Below are positions 36,433-37,299 of a DNA stretch of 46,611 nucleotides, in pieces. The DNA is from Microcaldota archaeon (GTDB taxonomy: Archaea; Micrarchaeota; Micrarchaeia; Anstonellales; JAGGVH01). The notes below the pieces were generated by a model. That model searched no databases and was not told where the DNA came from. It saw only the letters and a program-made list of their open reading frames with translations. Positions within the stretch are counted from its first letter, which is position 1, and the number at the start of each line of letters is the position of its first letter. Made by a program: the position numbers and the translations under genes. The stretch spans positions 1-46,611 of the forward strand of contig JAGGVH010000031.1 of the NCBI GenBank assembly GCA_021158105.1, read 5' to 3'.

Positions 36433-36496
36433 CATTCTTTTAAAAAATAGTTAATATGGGCCCGTAGCTCAGCTTGGATAGAGCGGCTGCCTCCTA

Positions 36497-36654
36497 AACC
36501 ATTTTTAGGGATGTGCTCCTGCGGTTCGGAAATAATTCCCTTGTAATTCAGGGGGATCAGGAATACCCTAAAACTGAGGGGGACCAAATGAATCGTTCAG
36601 ATTCATGTGTGCATTGAACGTTAGTTCAATAGCATGTGCCCCCGCGGTTCGGAA
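36497..36654 (+). other. tRNA intron 1 (anticodon loop, position 37/38), about 158 nt
   Basis: Lies after A37 and before A38. AACC at its 5' end can pair with GGTT near its 3' end, with TCC of the anticodon pairing to GGA, giving a relaxed bulge-helix-bulge rather than a perfect one. The interior is a chain of hairpins: CCTAAA/TTTAGG, GGAA/TTCC, AGGG/CCCT, ATGAATC/GATTCAT (36588-36606) and ATTGAAC/GTTCAAT (36613-36630), the last two enclosed by GGGGG/CCCCC. Most archaeal tRNA introns are far shorter. No open frame longer than a few codons. Confidence 0.7.
36511..36532 (+). repeat. direct repeat copy 1 inside tRNA intron 1
   Basis: 22-bp unit beginning ATGTGCTCC and ending GGTTCGGAAA; matches copy 2 at 36634-36655 in 20 of 22 positions. 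Confidence 0.85.
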
Positions 36655-36655
36655 A
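36634..36655 (+). repeat. direct repeat copy 2, containing the 3' splice site of intron 1
   Basis: 22-bp unit beginning ATGTGCCCC and ending GGTTCGGAAA, abutting the anticodon-stem 3' strand GCAGT. It differs from copy 1 by two T-to-C changes. Confidence 0.85.
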
Positions 36656-36673
36656 GCAGTAGGCCGAGGGTTC

Positions 36674-36711
36674 TGTCCTTTTTTCTTTCAAAGAGAAAAA
36701 AGGGCGCCTAA
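36674..36711 (+). other. tRNA intron 2 (T loop, after position 56), 38 nt
   Basis: Inserted between TTC and AAAT of the T loop. Holds a perfect 10-bp hairpin, CCTTTTTTCT (36677-36686) with AGAAAAAAGG (36694-36703). Its removal restores TTCAAAT and the GAGGG/CCCTT stem. T-loop introns are non-canonical and are known mainly from archaea with broad-specificity splicing endonucleases. Confidence 0.75.
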
Positions 36712-36762
36712 AAATCCCTTCGGGCCCGTTTTAAACATCATAAATATTGGAGTGGTGATATT

Positions 36763-37299
36763 ATGAATGAAAAGACATTAGTAATAATCAAACCTGACGG
36801 TGTTAAAAAAAAGATAGTTGGCGAAATCATAACACGATTCGAAAAGGTTGGCCTGACAATCAGCAGAATGAAAATGATGGTTGCCAGTGAAGAACTCGCA
36901 AGAAAACATTATAATAAAGATGATGTATGGTGTAAAAAGGTTGGCAAAAAAACCATCAGTGAGTTTAAAGAAAAAGGGTATGATGTGGTTAAGACTTTGG
37001 GGAGTGATGACCCGTTGACAATCGGAAAACAAATCTTAAACAACCTGATAAAATACATAACACGAGGCAAGGTAATAGTAATGGTGTTAGAAGGTCCCTA
37101 TGCGATTGACACTGTCAGAAAAATTGTTGGCAGCACATACCCATTAACTGCTAACCCCGGAACGATCCGCGGTGATTATGCAATTGACACTGCATTTCTG
37201 TCAGCATACGAAAACAGGTCTGTTGAGAATATAGTACACGCTTCTGAGAATGATGACGACGCAAAAAGGGAAATAGAGTTATGGTTTGGAGAATATTAA
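36763..37299 (+). CDS. ndk: nucleoside diphosphate kinase
   Basis: Transfers the gamma phosphate between nucleoside di- and triphosphates. KTLVIIKPDGVKK opens the protein, and NIVHASENDDDAKREIELWF carries the phosphorylated His (about residue 159) in the family's NxxHxS position; NPGTIRGDYA precedes it. At 178 residues it is longer than the usual 140-155 because of an insertion at about 50-90, as in other archaeal NDKs. GGTGATATT precedes the ATG, and the 3' end of the tRNA lies only 34 bases upstream; the TTTTAAAC next to the tRNA end is too close to act as a box without losing the ribosome binding site, so read-through from the tRNA promoter is possible. Confidence 0.95.
   Translation: MNEKTLVIIKPDGVKKKIVGEIITRFEKVGLTISRMKMMVASEELARKHYNKDDVWCKKVGKKTISEFKEKGYDVVKTLGSDDPLTIGKQILNNLIKYITRGKVIVMVLEGPYAIDTVRKIVGSTYPLTANPGTIRGDYAIDTAFLSAYENRSVENIVHASENDDDAKREIELWFGEY

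Follow-up and report, generated by a model that had tools for sequence, protein, structure and literature searches.

Two introns and a dispersed, putatively triplex-forming repeat in a tRNA-Arg(CCT) gene of an ARMAN-like archaeon

The gain of introns by archaeal tRNA genes is a standing question. Transposition of tRNA introns in archaea has been proposed without a mechanism (PMC4090602), and for the Thermoproteales the movement of introns among tRNA genes has been described (Fujishima et al. 2010, as summarized in PMC4090602 and PMC4033280). In Caldiarchaeum, intron gain in tRNA-Thr(GGU) has been explained by an integrating element (PMC3293823), and relaxed splice motifs are cut by epsilon-2 endonucleases (PMC6379350; PMC12397907). 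Moreover, introns occur in 92-95% of the tRNA genes of the Asgard archaea Atabeyarchaeia and Freyarchaeia, often at non-canonical positions and several to a gene (PMC11291895).

This paper describes a tRNA-Arg(CCT) gene in which the recent gain of one intron and the recent growth of another can be followed against an ortholog of the same genus, in a genome where nearly every tRNA is interrupted. On the sequence comparisons given below, it is likely that this gene gained its T-loop intron by transposition and that its anticodon-loop intron was enlarged by a dispersed repeat, designated element E, together with an insert nested in it, broad-specificity splicing permitting both events. Element E is a concrete candidate for the entry of DNA into tRNA introns; it appears undescribed and class-wide, sequence covariation within it points to a triple helix, and its right end marks gene boundaries.

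The window, i.e., the whole stretch of DNA analysed (46,611 nucleotides), is contig 8 of an assembly of 962 kb in 50 contigs that is ~89% complete. Positions 36458-36728 of the forward strand comprise a tRNA-Arg(CCT) gene of three exons and two introns, with a gene for nucleoside diphosphate kinase (NDK) directly downstream:

36458-36496, + strand: exon 1, with the acceptor 5' strand, D arm, anticodon stem 5' strand, and nt 32-37; anticodon CCT at 36493-36495
36497-36654, + strand: intron 1, 158 nt, at 37/38 in the anticodon loop
36655-36673, + strand: exon 2, with nt 38, anticodon stem 3' strand, variable loop, T stem 5' strand, and TTC (54-56)
36674-36711, + strand: intron 2, 38 nt, in the T loop at 56/57, between C56 and A57
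36712-36728, + strand: exon 3, with AAAT of the T loop, T stem 3' strand, acceptor 3' strand, and discriminator G73
36763-37299, + strand: NDK gene, synteny anchor with genome G001

The joined exons, GGGCCCGTAGCTCAGCTTGGATAGAGCGGCTGCCTCCTAAGCAGTAGGCCGAGGGTTCAAATCCCTTCGGGCCCG, are 75 nt long with every arm paired, and CCA is not encoded in exon 3. ARAGORN named tRNA-Arg(cct) only after removal of both introns and made no call on the unspliced sequence, while the gene was missed by the Rfam tRNA model. A custom parser for spliced tRNAs, in which introns are permitted in the D loop, anticodon loop, variable region, and T loop, detected a single tRNA when both strands of the window were scanned (score 53, nothing else at 46 or above), and its best score over 60 Markov-shuffled windows was 40. 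The exons delimited by the parser are identical to those of the initial annotation, and the two introns proposed there, 36497-36654 and 36674-36711, are confirmed by ARAGORN, the parser, and the 60 shuffles. Removal of intron 1 gives back a normal tRNA, as befits a 37/38 intron, with cut sites that are ambiguous by one A. A second, uninterrupted tRNA-Arg(CCT) gene was searched for in the ~89% complete assembly and not found; judged from its sequence, the locus is probably the working and sole tRNA-Arg(CCT) gene of an ARMAN-like archaeon, itself probably a member of the Micrarchaeota.

The relaxed tRNA splicing previously proposed for this lineage is supported by its splicing endonuclease and by recurrent D-loop and T-loop introns in other tRNAs. 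The endonuclease encoded in the genome is a single chain of ~390 aa of the epsilon-2 (ARMAN) type, i.e., the broad-specificity type. It aligns over its full length with EndA of ARMAN-2 (4fz2, E=1.5e-98; Pfam domains were also examined) and keeps the residues matching Y236, H251, K282, and the loop lysine K161 of that protein, the numbering of active site and loop lysine being that of PMC6379350. As detected by the custom parser and ARAGORN, no fewer than 29 of the 32 tRNA genes parsed carry introns. The anticodon loop holds 26 of these introns (16-180 nt), the T loop 10, and the D loop 4; a covariance model of T-loop introns adds tRNA-Glu (C9) and tRNA-Arg(TCT) (C2), bringing the T-loop introns to about a dozen. 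The genome resembles ARMAN-1 and ARMAN-2 in endonuclease type, multiple introns, non-canonical intron positions, and relaxed bulge-helix-bulge (BHB) motifs (PMC6379350, PMC4033280, PMC12397907), but differs in that more than 90% of the parsed tRNAs bear introns, some of them three, and in that one intron holds a repeat resembling a mobile element. A very high tRNA intron content is shared with Atabeyarchaeia and Freyarchaeia; these are, however, Asgard archaea, and no intron-borne repeat element is mentioned in the part of PMC11291895 used here. In the tRNA-Arg(CCT) transcript, the epsilon-2 endonuclease would cut both introns, and a ligase, presumably RtcB, would join the three exons.

Several other tRNA genes of this genome have unusual structures. 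Two tRNA-Lys genes carry three introns each, in the D, anticodon, and T loops (G000:C20:4708-4944, - strand; G000:C1:31280-31628, + strand), and the T-loop intron of the former is composite, a 48-nt segment being added within the simple form. The tRNA-Arg(TCT) gene at G000:C2:22368-22545 (+ strand) cannot be fitted by the parser and would, by eye, require an extra intron of ~16 nt near 25/26 besides its T-loop intron.

Intron 2 belongs to a family of T-loop introns with a relaxed BHB, in which nt 51-54 (GGGT) form a helix with intron positions -6 to -3 (GCCT), with a 3-nt bulge on each side. The intron in tRNA-Arg(CCT) has this 4-bp central GGGT:GCCT helix with the bulges TC^T and AA^A; by inspection, an outer helix is lacking in it and in the other T-loop introns, which gives the HBh' form. 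In seven aligned members, 98.3% of the cells are paired in this register vs 22-51% when the register is slid, and the pairing is kept by ACCT in tRNA-Arg(TCG) and by GCCC in tRNA-Met. About nine other tRNAs of the genome share the sequence family of intron 2 at the same position. Such a spread over tRNAs is the pattern that was called intron transposition in Thermoproteales; relative to what PMC4090602 and PMC4033280 relate of that case, the lineage is another one, the endonuclease is of the epsilon-2 type, a T-loop 56/57 family is dominant, and a separate dispersed element lies inside one intron. The 139-nt T-loop intron of tRNA-Leu(TAA) (G000:C12:5309-5573, + strand) is unlike the main family and holds a near-tandem repeat, GGTGTCCTTCGGACATCCTAAAGAACCTCC, that is also present in other tRNA introns of the genome.

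The sole other genome of the genus, G001, has an orthologous tRNA-Arg(CCT) gene adjoining the same NDK gene. Its anticodon-loop intron measures 31 nt vs 158 nt in the window, and a T-loop intron is absent from it. Given this ortholog, intron 2 is most simply regarded as a gain on the lineage of the window, loss in G001 being the alternative, and would have come by transposition of a T-loop intron, while intron 1 appears to have grown. As to the neighbouring NDK gene of the window, its closest relatives in the scanned genome collection are bacterial (Patescibacteria and Alphaproteobacteria, 44-47% identity) and archaeal relatives were not found in that collection; the gene may have been acquired by transfer.

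Intron 1 had been characterized as exceptionally long and structured. It is indeed the third longest of the 26 anticodon-loop introns of the genome, after introns of 180 and 173 nt, but this description is incomplete because the ortholog has only 31 nt and the extra length consists of a dispersed repeat with a nested insert:

36515-36529, + strand: partial right end of an older E copy, GCTCCTGCGGTTCGG, inside intron 1
36550-36652, + strand: element E (match to model R1 at 36545-36652, 60.8 bits)
from 36550, + strand: left part of E, with tract 1 GGGGGA followed by TCAGG
36572-36576 paired with 36645-36649, + strand: E hairpin (AACTG), within intron 1
36578-36583 and 36639-36643, + strand: tract 2 GGGGGA and the C tract of E
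36584-36634, + strand: two-hairpin insert CCAAATGAATC...TTCAATAGCA, nested in the loop of the E hairpin
36644-36652, + strand: right end of E, GCGGTTCGG, 2 nt upstream of the 3' splice site of intron 1

The older remnant is followed by a 20-nt spacer (36530-36549) that ends in ATTC and resembles the spacers of tandem E units elsewhere in the genome, and the two-hairpin insert recurs in the E arrays at C13 and C1. In the set of 26 anticodon-loop introns, nt 32-35 form a helix with intron positions -6 to -3 in 90 of 104 pairs, a number that was reached by 0 of 2000 shuffled-tail controls (mean 68.8 pairs). Intron 1 is among the weakest of this set, with 2 of 4 pairs in the canonical BHB helix (CTCC:TCGG), and has an alternative, non-standard or relaxed pairing of TCC:GGA plus AACC:GGTT, which makes its excision plausible. 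The E copy of the window has no flanking direct repeat, and consequently its insertion is deduced from homology and from the short ortholog. According to the covariance model search, E is not found in G001, and since the ortholog there already has an E-less intron of 31 nt, E would have entered an existing intron in the window. Intron 1 would thereby have grown from 30-35 nt through insertion of E beside the 3' splice site, and the insertion would be tolerated through its removal together with the intron.

Element E is a dispersed unit of ~55 nt with the layout GGGGGA-TCAGGA-N~10-AACTG-A-GGGGGA-loop-TCCCCC-G-CGGTT-NNG and the fixed right end GCGGTTNNG. Elsewhere in the genome of the window it forms arrays 3' of tRNA-Phe (C13) and tRNA-Lys (C1), with units spaced by ~21-nt repeats, and it also occurs near tRNA-Val/Leu (C30). 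BLAST revealed E in seven genomes of the order, and its covariance model gave matches in 37 of the 83 genomes searched at that rank, with as many as 30 copies in a genome, in 48 of 196 genomes of the class, and in 49 of a phylum-wide sample of 295, all 49 belonging to this same class. The hairpin shows compensatory changes with a covariation score that was reached by none of 500 shuffles. Neither E nor intron 1 matched an Rfam family at gathering or relaxed thresholds, and E had no match in the viral and plasmid collections as searched. Judged from these comparisons, E looks new as a class-wide element, the introns themselves being of known kind.

The two purine tracts mirror each other, tract 1 lying before TCAGG and tract 2 after AACTG: with tract 1 in reverse order, a G is faced by G and an A by A or T. 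This triplex code is followed by 124 of 133 cells in 19 distinct tract pairs vs a shuffled maximum of 106, a comparison whose significance is overstated because the copies are related by descent, which the use of distinct pairs lessens but does not remove. Tract 2 has its Watson-Crick complement in the C tract, and the resulting order (reverse-Hoogsteen purine, purine, pyrimidine) is that of the class I purine-motif intrastrand triplex defined in PMC4666352, so that E has the sequence of such a triplex as a predicted structure. This triplex layout has been reported for DNA and not for RNA, and because the mirror covariation fits it, we take the evidence to mean that the structure of E matters at the DNA level. 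Like the potential intrastrand triplex elements and the BoxC motif of that study, E is a dispersed multi-copy repeat. E differs from them, however, in a first loop of ~24 nt with conserved TCAGG...AACTG, vs the loops of 1-6 nt searched there, in its fixed right end, in its preference for tRNA-gene boundaries, and in its direct repeats.

These last properties were seen in a set of 68 E copies with flanks, taken mainly from the highest-scoring matches. A direct repeat (score of at least 14) between the left and right flanks was present in 15 of the 68 copies and in none after shuffling, the null being single-base shuffling. In all 15 the right repeat copy starts within 5 nt of the right end of E, while the left copy lies 0-133 nt from the left end; among 39 further copies from outside the order, 11 likewise had a direct repeat at the right end, again vs none after shuffling. 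The repeats are 15-98 bp in length and include pieces of tRNAs and gene starts. Repeats of 55-98 bp lie beside copies L125, L187, and L196, and for L187 and L196 the two repeat copies differ mainly by what look like synonymous changes, as though the sequence had been copied from a related lineage rather than arising by simple target duplication. Moreover, 15 of the 68 copies have their right end no more than 3 nt from the end of a tRNA gene, 5' and 3' ends both being involved, and none has its left end so placed; ~0.04 cases would be expected by chance at ~45 tRNAs per megabase, and the independent number is slightly below 15 as some of these copies are orthologous (tRNA-Thr, G014 and G051). 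The second set of 39 copies contains one such case, as well as an E within the T loop of a tRNA-Gly(GCC), possibly a damaged copy.

From these data, E would be a mobile DNA element of small size that has a fixed right end, a core able to form a purine-motif triplex, and a preference for the boundaries of tRNAs and genes. We tentatively propose that E is a new mobile DNA element of ARMAN-like archaea, tiny, non-coding, and triplex-built, which duplicates its target and both inhabits and helps form tRNA introns, and that its single fixed end is set precisely at the ends of tRNAs, at splice junctions, and at the starts of genes; as a joint claim this is possible rather than probable. The Caldiarchaeum model likewise ties tRNA intron gain to mobile DNA and to duplicated tRNA fragments, but invokes an integrase-bearing, plasmid-like element, whereas E is ~55 nt, non-coding, and not accompanied by a large island (PMC3293823).

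The known classes of mobile DNA with which E was compared did not accommodate it. For 13 copies associated with tRNAs, up to ~19 kb of leftward sequence held no distant direct repeat that would make E the end of a large integrated island, apart from matches resembling other tRNA genes. E does not have the make-up of a MITE, which would share terminal inverted repeats with a transposase-encoding element, as only one fixed end was seen and no parent element was found. A REP of the Y1/RAYT transposase and a retroelement were also rejected, Y1 being absent from the genome of the window and from the E-rich G014, G051, and G071, and reverse transcriptase from the genome of the window and from the E-rich G014, G050, G051, and G071. 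Cas1 is lacking in the genome of the window and in relatives rich in E, G014 and G071 among them, and none of these three enzymes co-occurs consistently with E, which speaks against mobilisation by any of them.

The direct repeats and the boundary preference could alternatively stem from recombination at breaks induced by the triplex rather than from transposition of E. Intrastrand triplex motifs have been tied to rearrangement in bacteria (PMC4666352), and the variable distance of the left repeat copy agrees with this explanation; it is nevertheless unlikely, considering that the strong repeats start without exception beside the right end of E, that this was replicated in independent copies, and that E is present in multiple copies at unrelated sites.

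A comparably low probability is assigned to E being a maker of introns, which would supply the BHB when its right end comes to lie at a splice-competent position of a tRNA. Besides the copy in the window, E is found antisense in the anticodon loop of tRNA-Arg(TCT) of G047 and, by inspection, of tRNA-Ser(GCT) of G126, directly after TAA. In these three tRNAs its right end lies within ~3 nt of the 37/38 junction; the terminal CCGA of E forms the intron helix CCGA:TCGG in G047, and the copy in the window pairs through GGT with ACC. The cases are, however, just three, and the G001 ortholog has its short intron without E, in line with the enlargement by E of an intron that was already in place.

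It is improbable that the locus is a decaying pseudogene, in which the splice motif of intron 1 was ruined by the insertion of E and AGG codons are read by another tRNA. The weak central helix of intron 1 fits such decay, and a second gene may be missing from an assembly of this completeness, but every stem of the spliced tRNA is intact, the BHB of intron 2 is kept, no other CCT gene was found in the assembly, and ortholog and synteny with NDK are preserved. Slightly less probable still is that E works as an intron-borne RNA, for instance a guide or regulatory RNA comparable to the C/D-box RNA of certain tRNA-Trp introns in archaea: its sequence and hairpin are strongly conserved across the class, but its copy number varies from 0 to 30 per genome with absence from the same-genus G001, it lies in both orientations inside tRNAs, direct repeats flank it, it has no Rfam match, and its mirror pattern fits a DNA triplex, purine-motif triplexes being reported not to form in RNA (PMC4666352).

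Finally, two E copies with identical model scores are situated at contig ends (G000:C14:56-116 and G000:C28:3418-3478), where the repeat probably breaks the assembly. In several genomes, unrelated two-hairpin inserts occupy the two loops of E (L127, L109 on C30, and window positions 36584-36634), and the loops thus resemble hot spots at which other short palindromic elements insert.
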